DNA of 64,000 nucleotides from an uncultured Prevotellaceae bacterium (GTDB taxonomy: Bacteria > Bacteroidota > Bacteroidia > Bacteroidales > Bacteroidaceae): NCBI GenBank assembly GCA_900316645.1, contig ONDP01000006.1, positions 31,942-95,941 of the forward strand, in the 5' to 3' direction. The position numbers and the translations under genes are program-made. A model generated the notes under the pieces. That model did no database searches, was not told the origin of the DNA, and was given only the letters and a program-made list of their open reading frames with translations. This document shows, one piece after another, positions 4,124 to 63,859 of this stretch (positions are counted from its first letter, which is position 1; each line of letters begins with the position of its first letter).

Positions 4124-5371
4124 ATGGACCTGACAGAGATTTTCAAAAGAGTCAAGACCGCCAGCAAGAGTCTGGCCTTGCTCACTGACGAACAACGTAA
4201 TGAAATACTGATGGCAGTAGCCGATGCTATCGTGGACTACAAGGAACGCGTCCTGGTTGCCAACGAGAAAGACTTGGCGAAGATGGATGTCAAGAATCCG
4301 CTTTACGACCGTTTGCAACTGACTGAGAAGCGACTGGACGACATTGCTGCCGACATGCGGAATGTAGCATCGCTGCCCTCCCCCTTAGGCCACATCACCA
4401 AGGAGAAGACACTGCCCAACGGATTGCGCCTCTGTAGGGTATCAGTGCCCTTCGGTGTGATAGGCATGATTTACGAGGCTCGTCCCAATGTGACCTACGA
4501 CGTTTTCTCGCTTTGTTTCAAGAGCGGTAATGCCTGTGTGCTGAAAGGCGGTTCTGATGCCGACCTGTCAAACCAGGAGTCGGTAGAACTCATCCACGAA
4601 GTGCTGGAGCGCTTTGGGGTCAATCCCGATGTAGTCACCCTCCTGCCTGCCACCCATGAGGCTACTGGCGAGATGCTGAATGCCGTTGGCTACATAGACC
4701 TCTGCATACCAAGAGGTGGACGCCGACTGATTGACTTCGTCCGCGACACAGCCCGCATCCCTGTGATTGAGACTGGAGCCGGTGTTGTCAACACCTATTT
4801 CGATAAGGAGGGCGACCTGGAGATGGGTAAAGCCATTATCAACAATGCCAAGACACGTCGTGTCAGCGTGTGCAACGCCCTCGACTGTCTGATTATCCAC
4901 GAGGACAGGCTGGGTGACTTGACAGAACTGGTGAAGCCGTTGCTCGACCACAAAGTGACCATCTATGCCGACGCTCCCTCATATCAGATACTGACAGGCA
5001 TCTATCCTGAGGTGTTGCTGCAGGCTGCCACTTCCGACTCCTTCGGTACTGAGTTCATGGACTATAAAATGGCCATCAAAACCGTATCGTCTCTGGAGGA
5101 AGCACTGGACCATATCGACCAGTACGGTTCGGGACACAGCGAGGCTATCATCACCATGAATGAAGAGACGGCCCGCAAATTCCAACAACATGTTGATGCA
5201 GCCTGCGTCTATTGGAATGCCCCCACGTCGTTTACCGATGGTGCCCAATTCGGATTGGGTGCTGAGATAGGCATCTCTACCCAGAAGCTCGGTCCTCGCG
5301 GACCTATGGCACTGGAAGAAATCACCACCTATAAGTGGCTGATTGAAGGTGAAGGACAAATAAGGAAATAG
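4124..5371 (+). CDS. proA: Gamma-glutamyl phosphate reductase
   Basis: Second step of proline synthesis: NADPH-dependent reduction of gamma-glutamyl phosphate to glutamate semialdehyde. At 415 residues it has the usual family length. Aldehyde-dehydrogenase-like features are visible: [16 protein letters not shown] (about residues 108-123), CVLKGGSDA, and [19 protein letters not shown], which contains the catalytic cysteine. It ends with [16 protein letters not shown], a ProA hallmark. It lies 3 bases behind proB. The 23-base spacer to argF' consists largely of agtgaaN heptamers, so proA and argF' may form one transcript or be separated by a weak start site. Confidence 0.97.
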
Positions 5372-5390
5372 TGAAGAGTGAAAAGTGAAG
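5370..5390 (+). repeat. Three agtgaaN heptamers upstream of argF'
   Basis: Heptamers agtgaag, agtgaaa, agtgaag end 4 bases before the argF' ATG and overlap the last two bases of proA. They belong to the same dispersed family as 597-617 and 11068-11102. Confidence 0.8.
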
Positions 5391-5394
5391 AATT

Positions 5395-6411
5395 ATGAGA
5401 ACATTTATCAACGTAGAAGATATCGGACCATTGGACAAGGCAATGGCCGAGGCATTTGAGATTAAAAACGACCGTTTCAAGTATCAGCACCTGGGCAAGA
5501 ACAAGACCCTGATGATGATATTCTTTAATAATTCACTGCGCACCCGTCTGTCAACACAGAAGGCTGCCATGAACCTCGGCATGAATGTTATCGTGCTCGA
5601 CGTGAATGCCGGTGCTTGGAAGTTGGAGACAGAGCGCGGTGTCATCATGGACGGCGACAAGAGCGAACACCTGTTGGAGGCCATTCCCGTGATGGGTTGC
5701 TATTGCGACATGATTGGTGTGCGCAGCTTTGCAGGACTCACTGATCGTGAATACGACTATGCCGAGACGGTGCTCAACCAGTTTATCAAGTATAGCGGCA
5801 AACCCGTCTTCGCCATGGAGACAGCCACCGTACACCCCCTGCAGGCCTTTGCCGACCTGATTACCATTGAGGAGTACTGGAACCTCCCCAACCCCTCCCA
5901 AGGAGGGGCTACCGGTTCTCCCCTCCTTGGGAGGGGTCGGGGGAGGTGTAAAGTCGTCCTGACTTGGGCTCCCCACTGCCGTGCATTGCCTCAGGCCGTT
6001 CCCAACTCGTTTGCCCAGTGGATGAATGCCGCTGATGTCGATTTTGTGATTACCCATCCTGAGGGTTACGAACTCGATCCCAAGTTTGTGGGTAATGCCC
6101 GTGTGGAGTATGACCAGCGGAAAGCTTTCGAGGGAGCCGACTTCATCTATGCCAAGAACTGGTCGAACCCCGGTGTGACCAATCCTGCCGACTATGGAAA
6201 GATTACCTCGAAGGATATGTCGTGGACGGTAGATACCGAACACATGTCGTGGACCAACAACGGCAAGTTCATGCACTGTCTGCCTGTGCGTCGCGGTCTG
6301 ATTGTTACTGACGACGTTATCGAGAGTGCCAACAGCATCGTCATCCCCGAGGCAGCCAATCGCGAAATCAGCTGTTCGGTAGTCATCAAACGTATGTTAG
6401 AGTCACTATGA
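5395..6411 (+). CDS. argF': N-acylornithine carbamoyltransferase (Bacteroidota type) with a repeat-encoded insertion
   Basis: Transfers a carbamoyl group to N-succinyl- or N-acetyl-ornithine in arginine synthesis; the characterised Bacteroides fragilis relative uses the succinyl substrate. Motifs: FFNNSLRTRLSTQKAAMNLG (carbamoyl-phosphate loop, about residues 43-62), HPLQAFADLITIEEY (about 147-161), KVVLTWAPH, then PNSFAQWMNAADVDFVITHP and FMHCLPVRRG. Length is 338 residues, about 20 more than I recall for the family. The excess lies exactly at residues 162-185, where family members have only a short linker between the EEY helix and the KVVLTWAP strand. Those residues (Trp, then a Pro/Gly/Arg-rich run) are encoded by a 67-bp palindromic element. 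The frame stays open through it and all catalytic motifs are intact, so the protein may still work with a surface loop. Its stop overlaps the next start (ATGA). Confidence 0.92.
   Translation: MRTFINVEDIGPLDKAMAEAFEIKNDRFKYQHLGKNKTLMMIFFNNSLRTRLSTQKAAMNLGMNVIVLDVNAGAWKLETERGVIMDGDKSEHLLEAIPVMGCYCDMIGVRSFAGLTDREYDYAETVLNQFIKYSGKPVFAMETATVHPLQAFADLITIEEYWNLPNPSQGGATGSPLLGRGRGRCKVVLTWAPHCRALPQAVPNSFAQWMNAADVDFVITHPEGYELDPKFVGNARVEYDQRKAFEGADFIYAKNWSNPGVTNPADYGKITSKDMSWTVDTEHMSWTNNGKFMHCLPVRRGLIVTDDVIESANSIVIPEAANREISCSVVIKRMLESL
5881..5947. repeat. Palindromic GC-rich element inserted in frame in argF'
   Basis: Left arm 5881-5908 and right arm 5920-5947 are inverted copies: the inner 18 bases (acccctcccaaggagggg) are exactly complementary, and the outer part differs by one gap and one substitution. 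The loop 5909-5919 is ctaccggttct. Each arm also holds its own small palindrome (cccctcc / ggagggg). The composition is unlike the surrounding coding sequence. It resembles REP- or MITE-like palindromes; no transposase is visible in the window. Confidence 0.88.
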
Positions 6412-7436
6412 TATCATTTGAATGCGATTACAACAATGGGGCGCACCAGAAGGTGCTCGACAACCTTATTAAATATAATGGTGCGCACCCTACCCCATAC
6501 GGTTTTGACGAATTCAGCGAGCGCGCCAAGGAGCGCATCCGCGAAGCCTGTGGAATGCCAGATGCCCAGATATTCTTCCTGACAGGAGGTACACAGACCA
6601 ATGCCACCACGATAGACTCCATGCTCTATCAGTATGAGGGCGTCATCTGTCTGGAGTCAGGACATATCAATGTGCATGAATGCGGTGCCGTGGAGTTTAC
6701 CGAGCATAAAATCATCACACTGCCCGGTAAGGACGGTAAGATGGACTCAAGGATACTGGACAAGTATCTCGACGACTTCATGCACGACGGCAACAACGCC
6801 CATGCCGTATTCCCCGGTTTGGTATATATCACGTTCCCTACCGAACTGGGAACCATCTATACTGCCAAGGAACTGGACGATATCTACCAGGTATGCCAGC
6901 ATTACGAGATACCGCTCTACATCGACGGTGCCCGACTGGGCTATGGACTGATGGCTGAAGGCAATGACATCACGCTCCCCTATCTGGCGCGCCATTGCGA
7001 CGTGTTCTATATCGGAGGTACAAAGATTGGTGCTCTCTGTGGCGAAGCGGTGGTATTCACCAATCGGCAGGCTCACAAGCATTTCTTCTCTATCCAGAAG
7101 CAACACGGTGCCGTGATAGCCAAAGGCGCCTTGATAGGTCTGCAGTTCGAAGCCCTCTTCACCGACAATCTCTATTTCGACCTCTCCCGCCACGCTATCG
7201 AGATGGCGATGAAGATGAAAAAGATATTCCAGGAGAAAGGCTTTGAGTTCTATATTGACTCGCCCACCAATCAGCAGTTCGTCATTTTGCCGGATGCCTT
7301 GGTCGAGAAACTGTCGAAGGAAATGGAGTTCACCCATTGGGGACAAGCTCCGGGTCACAGAACGATATGCCGTTTTGTAACCAGTTGGGCCACCACCGAG
7401 GAAGAACTGCAGGAACTGGAGCGCATTATTTCTTAA
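6408..7436 (+). CDS. Low-specificity L-threonine aldolase family PLP enzyme
   Basis: A 342-residue fold-type-I PLP enzyme of the beta-eliminating lyase/threonine aldolase family, which cleaves threonine or allo-threonine to glycine and acetaldehyde. Visible: FLTGGTQTNATTIDSML (PLP phosphate region), PLYIDGARLGYGL (Asp-Gly-Ala-Arg contacting the cofactor, about residues 170-182) and YIGGTKIGALCGEAVVF (Schiff-base Lys, about 202-218). No signal peptide. It starts at the ATGA overlap with argF', so it is coupled to the arginine gene although it has no obvious role in that pathway. Its last 11 bases overlap the convergent CYTH gene. Substrate preference cannot be read. Confidence 0.88.
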   Translation: MISFECDYNNGAHQKVLDNLIKYNGAHPTPYGFDEFSERAKERIREACGMPDAQIFFLTGGTQTNATTIDSMLYQYEGVICLESGHINVHECGAVEFTEHKIITLPGKDGKMDSRILDKYLDDFMHDGNNAHAVFPGLVYITFPTELGTIYTAKELDDIYQVCQHYEIPLYIDGARLGYGLMAEGNDITLPYLARHCDVFYIGGTKIGALCGEAVVFTNRQAHKHFFSIQKQHGAVIAKGALIGLQFEALFTDNLYFDLSRHAIEMAMKMKKIFQEKGFEFYIDSPTNQQFVILPDALVEKLSKEMEFTHWGQAPGHRTICRFVTSWATTEEELQELERIIS

Positions 7437-11058: not shown

Positions 11059-11067
11059 CAAAAAAAA

Positions 11068-11102
11068 AGTGAAAAGTGAAAAGCGAAAAGTGAAAAGTGA
11101 AG
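11068..11102 (+). repeat. Five tandem agtgaaa-type heptamers
   Basis: Units agtgaaa, agtgaaa, agcgaaa, agtgaaa, agtgaag run without interruption between the divergent acyl-CoA ligase and FetB-like genes, where the ligase -33 element should be. Confidence 0.88.
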
Positions 11103-11893: not shown

Positions 11894-11957
11894 AATTCCC
11901 CACCTTGGGACTGTTTTAGTCCCAGGGTGGGAATTTTATAGTCCCAAGGTGGGAATT
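11894..11957. repeat. Inverted plus direct repeat of agtccca(a/g)ggtgggaatt
   Basis: The unit at 11918-11935 pairs with its near-exact reverse complement at 11894-11912 across a 5-base loop, and is repeated directly at 11940-11957. The hairpin could end transcripts of the upstream gene, but no long U tract follows. It directly precedes the 21-bp tandem array. Confidence 0.8.
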
Positions 11958-11977: not shown

Positions 11978-12102
11978 GAAAAATAAGTCCGCATTAAAAA
12001 ATAATAGTTCCGTATTAATGGATAACATGCCCTTATTGATGAATAACATGCCCTTATTGATGGATAACATGCCTTTATTGATGAATAAGGTGCCTTTATT
12101 GC
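11978..12102 (+). repeat. 21-bp tandem array (four good units, two degenerate)
   Basis: Four units of 21 bases at 12019-12102 with core ataacatgcccttatt, preceded by two diverged units at 11978-12018 that keep the spacing. Each good unit holds an imperfect dyad (aataa...ttatt around gggcatg when read on the minus strand). The same unit, inverted, forms a second array at 63776-63859. Read in the direction of the neighbouring SpoIIE gene, the array begins about 30 bases after its stop codon. Confidence 0.9.
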
Positions 12103-15489: not shown

Positions 15490-16384
15490 TGTGCAACTCG
15501 GCATTCTTCCTGTAATCGGAAGGACTGACACCTACATGCTCCTTGAAATATTTCGAGAAGAAAGACTGGTTGGGGAAATGCAGTTCTTCGGTGATTTCCT
15601 TGATGCTTTTCGTCGAGTTCTTGAGCAACACACGGATTTCCAATACCACATAGTCGTCAATCCACTCATTAGGTGTACGCTTGCTAATGAGTTTGATGGC
15701 CTCGGAAAGATATTTCGGGGTGAGGCATAACTGTTTGGCATACCAATTGACGCGTCGCTCGGTGCGGAAATGCTCGCCCAGCAGTCGGATGAACTGGGAA
15801 AAGATGACGTCGTGACGCGTCATAGACTTCGACTCCTGCTGTTCTACGCGCCAGATGACATTGCTCATGTCGTAGAACATTGCCAGCAACAGGGCCTTCA
15901 CCAGACCAGTGCGGTAGTGGTTCTGCTGGTCGCTCATTTTCCGACGGATGGTATAGAAGTAATTGCTATACACCTGTATCTCGCCCGGGGTAAGCGACAC
16001 GACGGGGTTTTGCATGGAGAAGAGCAATAGCGACGATACGTTCTGCACGTTCTGCACAAAACCATGATAGTATCGGGGGGTGAGCATGATGCACAGACAT
16101 TCGAAATCGGGCGACGTGGTGTAATGATCGACAATGTGCTTGGCTGAGATAAACATGAGGTCGCCAGGCTTCACATCCAGTTCCTTGGTATCGATGGAAT
16201 AGTGGGCGCTTCCCTGCTTGCAGAGTGCCATGAGAATGAAGTTCACACGCGTAGGCTCGTGGGGAATGGGAGCGTCGGCAATACAATCGGTGAGGACGAG
16301 TCCTTCGTCCATATATTCGGCATTGCCCATTCTGCAAAAGTCTTCGAGATGGGCATCATTAATCGTCTTGTTCTTCTTTACCAT
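15479..16384 (-). CDS. AraC-family transcriptional regulator
   Basis: A 301-residue one-component regulator. The N-terminal part has the AraC-type cupin pattern ([20 protein letters not shown], about residues 62-81), and the C-terminal 100 residues form two helix-turn-helix units ([20 protein letters not shown], then [20 protein letters not shown], ending in [10 protein letters not shown]). Its start overlaps the end of the GH95 gene by 7 bases, so both are made from one transcript. The simplest reading is a regulator that senses a product of fucoside breakdown or otherwise controls that operon. The inducer is not predictable. Its 3' end overlaps the convergent DUF3109 gene. Confidence 0.92.
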
Positions 16385-18753
16385 GTCTTTACGGGCAGGG
16401 TTTGACCTGCTTTTACTTTAAACGTCTTCTGCTGTTCATTATATAATAAGGTGACGATACCTGTCTTCTTGGCCTTGATGGATGCACTGCGCACTTTGCC
16501 GCCTTTCCATTGGAAACTGACTTCAAAGCCGCCACGGGCACACAGTCCGCTGACACTGCCCTCGCTCCACTCCTTGGGTAAGGCTGGGAGGAGTTCTATC
16601 TTTGTTGAGCGTTGAGCGTTGAGCATTGAGAGTTCTGACTGCATCAGCATTTCACAGACACCCGCTGTGCCTCCGAAATTGCCGTCAATCTGGAAGGGCG
16701 GGTGCGCATCCATCAGATTGGCATAGGTGCCACCGACGTGACGGGTACCAGGGCGCTGATCGTCCTGTGCATCGGTGAAGGTAAGCAGTTTGCGATAGAT
16801 GTGATAGGCATTCTCACCATTATGGAGACGTGCCCACAGATTGATGCGCCAGCCAGTGCTCCACCCTGTTGTCTCGTCGCCTTTCTGAATCAAGGTCTGG
16901 CGGGCGGCTTCGAGTAGTTTGGCTTCTTTCAGATGATTGCCAGGATAGAGTCCGATGAGGTGACTCTGATGGCGGTGCCGGGGGTCTTTGTCCTGCCAAT
17001 CGTAATACCATTCATTCAAATCACCCTCCTTGCCGATGGTATAGGGATGGAGGCGAGCGAGCGTCTTGCGATAATTGACGGTTTTGTCGCCACACAGTGC
17101 GGCTGCCTGCGTGGTATTGAGCAGCAGTTCGCGAATGATGGCAAGGTCGGCAGTACCTCCGTAGCACGTCATTCCATGATAGCCCTTGTCAGTGATATAC
17201 TCATTCTCTGGCGAAGTGGAAGGGGCAGTGATGAGTTCTCCGCGATAGTCAACCAGCCAACTCTTGCAGAACTCGGCAGCCCCCTTCATCAGAGGATAGG
17301 CAACGGTGCGCAGATAGTTCCTGTCTTGTGTGAACTGGTAGCGCTCCCATAGTGCGTTGACCAGCCAGGCACCTCCGAGATTGAAGTTTGCCCACTCAGG
17401 CCATTCGCGCTTCTCGCCAGTAGGATTGGTCATTGCCCAAAGGTCGCTGTTGTGACTGGAGCACCAGCCCTTGTGGATGCCATAGTAATTCTTGGCAGTA
17501 TTTTTGCCATTGTCAGCCAGAGCACGGATGAATTGATCGAGCGGCATTGCCATCTCAGCAAGATTGGCAACGAAGGCAGGCCAGTAGTTCTCCTCCAGAT
17601 TGATATTGACAGTGTAGTTGCCCCGCCAGGGTGACCACAGATAGGGCGTCCACAGTCCTTGCAGATTGGCAGGGACACCCGGTGTGCGTGAACAGGAGAT
17701 GAGCAGGTAGCGTCCGTACTGGAAATAGAGGGTTTCGAGGTAGCGAAGCCTTACCCACGACACCTCTCCTGTAGAGAGGGGAGATTCCGATGAGCTCTTC
17801 AATAGCTGGTCAGTAGGGATATCGGGCATTGTACCTCCCAAATCCAACTTCACCCGGTTGTAATATGTCTGATAGTCTGCAATATGATTGCGCTTGAACG
17901 TGTCGTAGGTATAGTTCTGCGTATGCCAGATGTCGTCGGTAGCTGCTTCCAGGTAGGAGGCAGACTCCTTGACAGGGTGCTTGTCGTACCCATTGAAACT
18001 GGTTTCGTTGACGATATATACGACGGCTTCCTTACCGTTGCGGATGGTCAGTGTGGAATCGGAGGCACTGACGTTTCCGTCGGTCTTAACCTGCAGAATG
18101 GTGCAGAAGTGGATGCTCTCCTGTGGGTCGCCAGTGGCGTGGCCGGTCATGAGTAATTGACCATTGCCCATAGAGGCCTTGACTTGGTGGGGCACTTGGG
18201 AGTTCATGACGATGCGACAGTTGATGTTGCCCTGCAAACGAATGGCAATGAGCTTGTCGGGATGCGAAGCGAAATACTCGCGGGTGAAGGTCGTGCCATT
18301 GCGCTCATAACGGTCGGACGCCAAGGCGTCGTCAAGACTCAGTTCACGATAGTAATTGCCTGCAACACCTTGATTATCGTCGATGATAAAGACATTGCCC
18401 AGCGGCTGGTAGAACTGTGAGTTAGGCCCCTGAACATGCAGTTGCAGCGAGTCGGCCAATTTGTAGTCTTCGTTGAACAGTGCCTCGCGGATGCGGGGAA
18501 TCCATTGGTGGGCATCCTTGTCGAGGTTTCGTTCGACGGGTTTGCCTGTCCATAGCGTGATGTCGTTCAATTGCACCAAGCAGGTATCAGTGCCACCATA
18601 AACAAGGGCACCCAGTTTACCATTGCCGATGGGCAGCGACTCTTCAAAATAACGGGCTGCGTGGTCGTACCATAGTTTCATGGGCAGTTGCTGCTGAGCA
18701 GAAGCTGCTAAGCCACTACAGACGATAACAAACGAAATAAGGAATTTTCTCAT
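16378..18753 (-). CDS. Secreted glycoside hydrolase family 95 (alpha-L-fucosidase / alpha-L-galactosidase)
   Basis: A 791-residue enzyme expected to remove terminal alpha-1,2-linked fucose, or alpha-L-galactose from plant xyloglucan or mucin-like glycans. Residues 1-20 form a signal peptide ([16 protein letters not shown], then Gln-rich start), so it is exported, probably to the periplasm. The N-terminal beta-sandwich begins [20 protein letters not shown] with the family's [10 protein letters not shown]. The catalytic (alpha/alpha)6 part shows [19 protein letters not shown] (about residue 381), [10 protein letters not shown] (about 517) and [12 protein letters not shown] (about 688), matching the Asn pair, Glu and Asp positions important in characterised GH95 enzymes. 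Four ttgagc-type heptamers fall inside the gene and encode about residues 708-717. No SusC/SusD pair is adjacent, so it is not in a full polysaccharide utilisation locus here. Confidence 0.92.
16604..16631 (+). repeat. Heptamer repeat inside the GH95 coding sequence
   Basis: gttgagc three times followed by attgaga, 28 bases in all. On the coding strand it is translated as part of MLNAQRST. Three heptamers equal seven codons, so gain or loss of three units keeps frame. Confidence 0.85.
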
Positions 18754-18778
18754 TATGCTCAGGTTTTTAGTTAGATAA

Positions 18779-18809
18779 AGCCCTGCCAGACTTCACGTCT
18801 TACAGGGCT
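18779..18809 (-). terminator. Probable terminator behind gyrB
   Basis: agccctg (18779-18785) pairs with cagggct (18803-18809), with an inner agac/gtct stem. It is followed on the minus strand by a short T-rich run. It separates gyrB from the GH95 gene. Confidence 0.7.
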
Positions 18810-46057: not shown

Positions 46058-47110
46058 CTATTTCCTGATGAGTTTCACGTATGTCTTAATGGCATTGTGA
46101 ATCTCATCGATTTCTATGTATTCATCAGCCGTATGACTGCGGCTTGATTCGCCTGGTCCTAACTTGAACGAGGGGAAAGGCATCAGGGCTTGGTCGGAAA
46201 GCGTGGGCGAGCCGTATGGCTTCATCCGCATACGCTTACATCTCTTAATCAGAGGATGATTCTCTGGGAAAAATGAAGAGTGAAGACGGAAGGAACGGGC
46301 CTTCAGTTCACTCTTCATGTGTTTCTGTAGGAAGGCGAACACAAATTCATTCTGGTAGTACTCATTGGTACGCACGTCAATGACAAACTCCACTTTGTCA
46401 GGAATCACATTATGCTGTGTTCCGGCATGCACCACCGTTACCGTTGCCCTTGTTTCGCCCAGGAACGGACTCACCTTGCGGAACTGATAGTCACGAAGCC
46501 ACTGCAAGTCGTCCAGCACTTCGTTAATGGCATTCACACCCTCGTTACGGGCAGCATGGCCGCTCTTTCCATGTGCCACACCGTCAATCACCATCAGTCC
46601 CTTCTCGGCAATGGCAGGATTCATTCCTGTTGGTTCGCCGACTATCGCCACGTCAATAGGCGGCAGTACTGGCAAAACAGCCGAAAAGCCATTCTGCCCA
46701 CTGACCTCCTCTTCGCACGAAGCCACATATATTATATTATAAGGTATATCCTTCTCCACCGAAAGGATACGATACACCTGCAACAGACTTACCAGTCCAC
46801 CTCCGCAGTCGTTAGCCCCCAGTCCGTATAGTTTTCCATCCTCTATCGTTGGCACAAACGGGTCACGCGTCCATGTCTCCACAGGTTTCACCGTATCGAT
46901 ATGGGCATTCAGCAGCATCGTAGGTTTCTTCTTGCTAAGTCGTTTGGCAACTATCAGGTTGTTGCCGATGCGCTTACAAGGGAGTCTCCATTCTTTTATC
47001 TTGCGCTGCAAGACGTCAGCAGCAGCCTTCTCGTCGCGACTGACGGAAGGCGTGCTGATCAATTCTGACAGCAGTTCTACTGCATCGTTAGTGTACCGTT
47101 TGTAACTCAT
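46058..47110 (-). CDS. M20 family deacylase (N-acyl-ornithine/citrulline deacetylase type)
   Basis: A 350-residue M20 metallohydrolase of the ArgE/DapE group. LLNAHIDTVKPVETWTRDPF (first metal His and Asp, about residues 71-90), GLGANDCGGGLVSLL (bridging Asp), ASCEEEVSGQNGFSA (catalytic Glu pair) and IAEKGLMVIDGVAHGKSGHA (dimerisation region) are visible. The presence of an N-acylornithine carbamoyltransferase in the same window makes N-acylcitrulline the likeliest substrate, closing an acylated arginine route, but ArgE-like acetylornithine or related substrates cannot be excluded. It stands apart from argF' by about 40 kb, convergent with the EnvC operon and behind gpmI. Confidence 0.82.
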   Translation of the reverse strand: MSYKRYTNDAVELLSELISTPSVSRDEKAAADVLQRKIKEWRLPCKRIGNNLIVAKRLSKKKPTMLLNAHIDTVKPVETWTRDPFVPTIEDGKLYGLGANDCGGGLVSLLQVYRILSVEKDIPYNIIYVASCEEEVSGQNGFSAVLPVLPPIDVAIVGEPTGMNPAIAEKGLMVIDGVAHGKSGHAARNEGVNAINEVLDDLQWLRDYQFRKVSPFLGETRATVTVVHAGTQHNVIPDKVEFVIDVRTNEYYQNEFVFAFLQKHMKSELKARSFRLHSSFFPENHPLIKRCKRMRMKPYGSPTLSDQALMPFPSFKLGPGESSRSHTADEYIEIDEIHNAIKTYVKLIRK

Positions 47111-63734: not shown

Positions 63735-63775
63735 AACAAAGTATGGCTGAAAGTGGTGCAATAAAGGCGCTATGT

Positions 63776-63859
63776 TTTCTTCAATAAGGGCATGTTATTC
63801 ATCAATAAGGGCATGTTATTTGCCAATAAGGGCATGTTATTTGCCAATAAGGGCATGTA
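63776..63859 (-). repeat. Second 21-bp tandem array, four units
   Basis: Units of 21 bases at 63776, 63797, 63818 and 63839 with core aataagggcatgtt, the reverse complement of the array at 12019-12102. A further diverged unit lies just upstream. It begins 42 bases after the preceding gene's stop. Confidence 0.9.

Follow-up and report, generated by a model that had tools for sequence, protein, structure and literature searches.

An in-frame palindrome in argF'

The window analyzed here, a stretch of 64,000 nt of DNA from an uncultured Prevotellaceae bacterium, includes on its forward strand the gene argF' (positions 5395–6411), which encodes an N-acetyl/N-succinylornithine transcarbamylase of 338 aa. 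The top NCBIfam match of the product was NF003384 (N-acetylornithine carbamoyltransferase) with a score of 269.9 bits, below the cut-off of 288, and its best solved relatives – 1JS1, 2G7M and 2FG6 – were all from B. fragilis, with ArgF' of the window and 1JS1 sharing 71% identity in a fold search. Judging from the motifs named for this family and from the high identity of the remaining protein to 1JS1, the catalytic motifs are presumably intact. In the alignment with 1JS1, the only long gap (18 residues) falls after EEY and before KVV, at the place of KKTARP in 1JS1, and a further 3-residue length difference lies near residue 257. An earlier note on this DNA had placed about 20 additional residues between EEY and KVV; the location agreed with the alignment but the size was slightly overstated, the net gain being 18 residues because six residues of most relatives (KxVxRP and similar) are gone. 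The loop concerned (residues 161–185, positions 5875–5949 on the forward strand, as defined from a structure model and the alignment of relatives) joins helix 148–163 to strand 186–190 in the predicted ArgF' structure (mean pLDDT 79.5), with pLDDT values <50 at residues 167–180.

Within this loop lies a 67-bp palindromic dimer (positions 5881–5947, forward strand), consisting of two inverted hairpin units with an 11-nt spacer and read in frame as NLPNPSQGGATGSPLLGRGRGR. The hairpin unit has the organization CCTCCCC, 2–3 nt, CCCCTCC, 3 nt, GGAGGGG. The left unit (5882–5908, forward strand; C26:37823-37849) shows three mismatches to the full pattern and a head that is one C shorter, and the right unit (5920–5946, opposite orientation; C26:37861-37887) is an exact pattern match. 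The arms of the inverted repeat (5886–5908 and 5920–5942) are 23 nt each and 96% complementary, with 11 nt between them, and the GC content is 69% over positions 5881–5947 compared with 53% for argF', in agreement with the description in the earlier note of a GC-rich inverted repeat across which the reading frame stays open. The palindrome has the longest stem among five hairpins from a scan of the window (stems of at least 14) and a predicted folding energy of −57.7 kcal/mol. When a few bases of flanking sequence were included, the insert folded 6.7 sd below dinucleotide shuffles, with none of 100 shuffles as low. Stop codons were found in none of the six frames of a single 29-nt unit and in one of the six frames of the dimer, and this near absence of stops would make survival inside genes easier.

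Copies of the palindrome in the host genome

The hairpin-unit pattern, searched with up to three mismatches, gave 11 matches at nine loci of the host genome against none for the reversed-pattern control, thus supporting the proposal in the earlier note that the palindrome is a member of a dispersed family inserted in frame. That note had named the lack of any other copy in the genome as evidence against its proposal, and matches were present at eight further host loci. The palindromic unit is 27–29 nt long and multicopy, as REPs are in size (20–40 bp) and number (several copies). Seven of the nine loci are in open coding frames, namely argF' (with two inverted units), tsaE, metG, purL, the genes of an ABC-F protein and of an RluA-type pseudouridine synthase, and mnmE, where the copy is terminal and corresponds to the N-terminus of the protein. 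The other two are outside genes, immediately upstream of genes that we take to be ackA-like and argC-like. Family profiles reach across the element in the TsaE, MetG, PurL, ABC-F and RluA-type proteins, and host TsaE has seven residues more than PDB 9zw5 at the point matching its copy. In mnmE, the sole in-frame ATG ahead of the conserved domain precedes the element, and an in-frame TTG inside the element may be the start. In host PurL (L171 362–3025, reverse strand), two further in-frame stretches beside the palindrome, CQLSMINSQLPKVLQ and RWRNGQSSMANGQSPK, were repeat-like.

The ArgF' loop across the genus

In a sample of 100 genomes of the genus, many of them drafts as for the other counts given below, 80 had a match and 78 ArgF' proteins were read, including that of the window; a fragment from G036 and weak paralogue matches in G005 and G084 were excluded, and G048 supplied two proteins. 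The loop was of base length in 45 of these proteins and longer in 33, with at least six extra residues in 22. Most homologues read are therefore without the residues seen in the window, whose presence in most Bacteroidota homologues the earlier note had named as evidence against its proposal, and most of those with a longer loop carry something else. A second, overlapping set comprised 398 genomes (331 with a match), for which only the best-scoring loci were read. Of these, 20 loci were picked for their length and others came from 14 genomes in which the ArgF' match was split or partial, so that the totals given hereafter are enriched for long loops. Wherever the loop was readable in those 14 genomes, it was of base length or had two additional residues, so that the splitting of the matches could not be traced to any giant insert. 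Among named public records, from genomes partly overlapping with the above, 32 of the best 80 of at least 595 loci had a longer loop and 22 had at least six residues more.

Across 185 ArgF' sequences (a set enriched for long loops), 84 insertions of at least three residues were at base positions 158–167 and six elsewhere. In the genus, ArgF' has a single insertion hot spot, the helix-to-strand loop, and the view that tolerance of an insertion by this enzyme is unusual, as expressed in the earlier note, was not supported.

The inserts filling the loop were sorted into families by eye: the palindrome type of the window (n = 3), a second palindrome type (n = 6), a 110-bp palindrome in genome G071, two kinds of smaller hairpins, and tandem heptamers. 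The window type was also present in ArgF' of two relatives, G061 and G370. Outside the loop, base differences among the three carriers amount to 18–19%; the closest relatives of the set, with 13–14% difference (13% for the nearest empty one), do not have this palindrome. All three ArgF' palindromes of the window type have a head that is one C short compared with the other copies, which could point to one insertion, with common origin or transfer both possible, rather than three insertions. The other loop families, searched in their carrier genomes with totals that include argF' copies and both strands, were also dispersed: 76 matches in six of six genomes for the second palindrome, 86 in G071 for the 110-bp element (many over its full length), 37 against three in the control for the GGCAGCGG hairpin (nine of ten genomes), and 43 in two of two genomes for a heptamer inverted repeat of ArgF' type. 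For the second palindrome, 24 copies outside argF' were read, 19 being in open frames of at least 183 aa, four not in long ORFs and one at a clipped locus.

Folding did not unite the inserts. In 33 of 66 distinct inserts of at least six residues, no more than five of 100 shuffles folded equally well, and the other 33 folded no better than shuffles, so that a hairpin as the common denominator of all loop inserts was dropped. On a gene tree of the 185 sequences, the presence of an insert required 46 changes (mean of 54.9 and range of 45–60 for 100 shuffles) and the family labels required 60 (mean of 65.4 and minimum of 63 for 50 shuffles). This tree was built by a quick method from one short conserved gene, using a set enriched for long loops and family labels assigned by eye, and for these reasons no number of independent gains is given. 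Insert presence is loosely tied to the gene tree, which, on a weak tree, agrees with fast turnover.

It could be argued that the loop is an unconstrained, slippage-prone linker in which local duplication changes the length and template switching creates palindromes in place, with no mobile element involved. Several of the inserts in ArgF' consist of short tandem heptamers, some inserts look like heptamer arrays, arrays of this kind are present elsewhere in the window, and the half of the longer inserts that fold no better than shuffles would fit such an origin. Against this, the insert of the window has counterparts at the eight other host loci, that of G071 matches dozens of places, many at full length, and even the ArgF'-type heptamer inverted repeat is dispersed. 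These matches elsewhere indicate that the window and G071 inserts are not local inventions. Slippage is improbable as a general explanation and is refuted for the palindrome families, though some heptamer loops may have arisen in this way.

We regard as considerably less probable again a function of the hairpin as an RNA or regulatory element of the argF' mRNA, acting in attenuation, stability or translational pausing. Such a function would be in keeping with the strong predicted fold and with hairpin formation at this place by sequences that differ between species, but 45 of the 78 ArgF' genes are without extra residues at the loop and copies are present in unrelated genes. A comparison of positions 5300–6500 with Rfam gave eight matches at E values up to 1, all below the gathering score, and the RNA-element reading was dropped.

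Genic copies of the 110-bp element

The ArgF' insert of G071 is a 110-bp palindrome corresponding to about 37 residues, the size class of the Rickettsia palindromic elements (RPE). Of 192 candidate copies in this genome, 40 were scored in a reading of the best BLAST copies. Outside argF', 38 of 39 copies were in open frames of at least 272 aa (19 of 19 and 19 of 20 in two batches), these ORF lengths being minima where the frame reaches the end of the DNA read, as several did. Profile scoring against the frame placed 36 of the 39 in the orientation found in argF', the others being L313, L372 (unconvincing) and L373 (a near-tie). An opposite orientation for nine of the 39, based on peptide motifs, was overruled by this scoring, the differing peptide being mostly another frame. 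When 23 host proteins of the G071 element were scanned, family matches flanked the element on both sides or ran across it in 15 and were limited to one side in eight. The proteins include UvrA, an RNB-domain nuclease, a topoisomerase subunit, PurL, GH3, an ABC transporter, glycoside hydrolases, CTP synthase, ValS, IleS and ABC-F. The domain match of the RNB protein reaches across the insert, which sits between DDAISI and LYEVGVHIADVSHY in comparison with RNase R (8cdu).

Uncut G071 copies share the ends AGACCC and GGGTCT (20 copies displayed, three of them cut at the right end), and their left ends vary by one C in a run of C while the inner frame is kept. Three copies (L299, L300 and L304) break off at one shared point, after which comes a different hairpin (ATTTTGTCCTTAAGCGGACAAAAT or a close variant of it); they look as though the first element had itself received a second one.

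With 40 of 192 candidates scored, a genic share drawn from the best BLAST copies is biased, and a stretch sample was therefore taken, consisting of 390 kb from three G071 contigs searched with a profile from 13 copies. The contigs were picked among those with earlier matches and contain at least one training copy, so that the density of 42 profile matches (none in the reversed sequence) is not unbiased. Nine of the 12 near-full-length copies (at least 100 of 113 positions) were in seven genes with open frames of 364–1094 aa, and the remaining three, with the lowest scores, were not in genes. A genic share of nine in 12 is not above the coding-density expectation for random insertion without selection. 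What stands out is that the genic copies stay in frame, whereas L306, the one G071 copy checked in all six frames, is open in just three of them and would have to fit in length as well.

Ribosome-skipped inserts are known in some yeast mitochondria, and the insert of the window sits in a core enzyme, but a removal before or during protein synthesis (as an intron, by translational bypass or in an intein-like manner), such that the enzyme would never carry the insert, is the least credible of the alternatives, since it needs neither a reading frame nor the absence of stops, and yet 38 of the 39 G071 copies read in an open frame and all seven host coding loci are open (with the reservation that L306 has stops in three of six frames).

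By-eye comparison further showed one ABC-F linker occupied by different palindromes in two species (host L174 561–2522 and G071 L371 183–2231). This linker repeats the pattern seen in ArgF', and also that of recB from two Xanthomonas species, which, as described in PMC3733652, have different REPs at about the same site.

Comparison with known palindromic elements

Intragenic REPs of the GTAG and CGTC superfamilies are described in PMC3733652 as short palindromic units, often arranged as inverted dimers, with dimers or groups encoding 20 to 30 residues inside genes that include uvrA and those for tRNA synthetases and pseudouridine synthases; the paper places most REPs between genes, and its text has no occurrence of the word Prevotella. 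The Prevotella elements resemble these REPs in their short palindromic units, inverted dimers and in-frame genic copies, but are without a conserved GTAG or CGTC tag: the tag or its complement was absent at five of the nine host loci (57 nt examined) and its position varied at the other four. In addition, GTAG/CGTC REPs are mostly extragenic, whereas the Prevotella elements are mainly genic, with two of nine copies outside genes in the host and three of 12 in the G071 sample. Based on the lack of a conserved tag and the mainly genic location, the Prevotella elements were not filed as GTAG/CGTC REPs.

RPE, which are treated in PMC3733652 and PMC2635572, are likewise palindromes in frame within unrelated proteins. 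By this analogy, the Prevotella elements appear to work like RPE, which would make the Rickettsia elements the closest functional match. The two groups of elements belong to different phyla, and in Prevotella several families share one landing loop. The elements are similar to the repeats associated with RAYT (PMC6006769) in that hairpin units occur as singles and as inverted dimers and that Y1 transposase genes are present in the host. With MITEs (PMC10969869) they share short length, a non-autonomous nature and inverted ends, those of the G071 element (AGACCC...GGGTCT) forming terminal inverted repeats, but neither a target duplication nor a parent transposon has been established for the Prevotella elements. 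In-frame palindromes are thus known from Rickettsia and some REP-rich genomes, and the Prevotella elements differ in being untagged and mainly genic. The titles and abstracts searched, a body of literature from which subscription journals are mostly missing, contained no report of in-frame palindromes in Prevotella.

Origin and retention of the inserts

Taken together, the 67 bp are likely to be the dimeric form of a REP/MITE-like element (short, palindromic and non-autonomous) that was inserted in argF' and retained there, several families of such elements being dispersed across Prevotella genomes, for the most part within genes, with the ArgF' loop as a preferred surviving site. Transposition as the source is suggested by the dispersed similar copies with common ends. 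Non-autonomous palindromes would jump between genomic sites, with gene-breaking copies purged and those forming harmless loops persisting, so that selection may account for the preserved frames. The argF' copy would have stayed as it hit a surface loop, preserved the reading frame and brought no stop in that frame, and the 67-bp insert would then be translated as part of ArgF', probably with little consequence for the enzyme. The same process could explain why the repeats occupying the ArgF' loop differ from species to species.

For the elements, neither a target-site duplication nor a clean empty site was found, with a small number of host residues seeming to be replaced at ArgF' and RNase R, and no two strains were found that differ in the presence of the element. 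As regards a mobilizing enzyme, two Y1 transposase genes were found in the host and seven in four of six relatives searched, with none in G395 and G379. At eight of the nine Y1 loci (L097, L098, L389 and L391–L395), no match to the element ends or heads tried was found within about 1.5 kb on each side where the contig allows. In G150, the remaining Y1 locus (L390) carries motifs of the ArgF' insert family of that genome at 83–122 and 881, which lie on one side of the Y1 gene at distances of about 1.4 and 0.6 kb. A link to RAYT or a REPtron was dropped, since no Y1 gene read was clearly flanked by the element of its own genome.

A broader and more tentative reading, which we consider possible but hold with less than even confidence, is that gene interiors are the normal home of the Prevotella palindromes, and that these stop-free or frame-restricted sequences spread as translated loops, with the ArgF' loop and the ABC-F linker as shared landing sites refilled by unrelated families. 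If so, the proteome itself, and not intergenic DNA, would be the main reservoir of these palindromes. The ArgF' loop, with a match in 331 of 398 genomes of the genus, could provide a natural record of insertion, replacement and loss, which would allow tests of the origin and tolerance of coding mobile elements and of the kinds of protein loop that can take 20–40 extra residues. It also calls for caution with length-outlier proteins of Prevotella, which may hold a repeat and not a domain.

Other repeats in the window

In addition to the palindrome, the window contains heptamer tandem repeats that are apparently intergenic, at positions 593–618, 1037–1066, 5370–5391 and 11065–11101 (GAATAGT, TTTTCAC, AGTGAAG and AAAAGTG, respectively). 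The repeat at 5370–5391 is directly upstream of argF', and in other species the ArgF' loop is occupied by repeats resembling these heptamers. A hairpin at 46271–46320, in a second ORF of the window, was considered as a further in-frame insert and dropped, as its peptide looks native when set against known homologues. About four in-frame GTTGAGC heptamers, amounting to 11 residues, were observed at 16604–16634 near the C-terminus of the 804-aa enzyme encoded by ORF 16381–18792 (reverse strand), which we take to be a glycoside hydrolase, and are possibly a second in-frame repeat of the window. A palindromic repeat block (CCCACCTTGGGA...AGTCCCAAGGTGGGA) was present at 11897–11957, outside any long ORF. 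Two arrays of 21-bp repeats at 12013–12101 and 63759–63858, about 51 kb apart, look reverse-complementary by eye (TATTGATGAATAACATGCCCT and CAATAAGGGCATGTTATTC).
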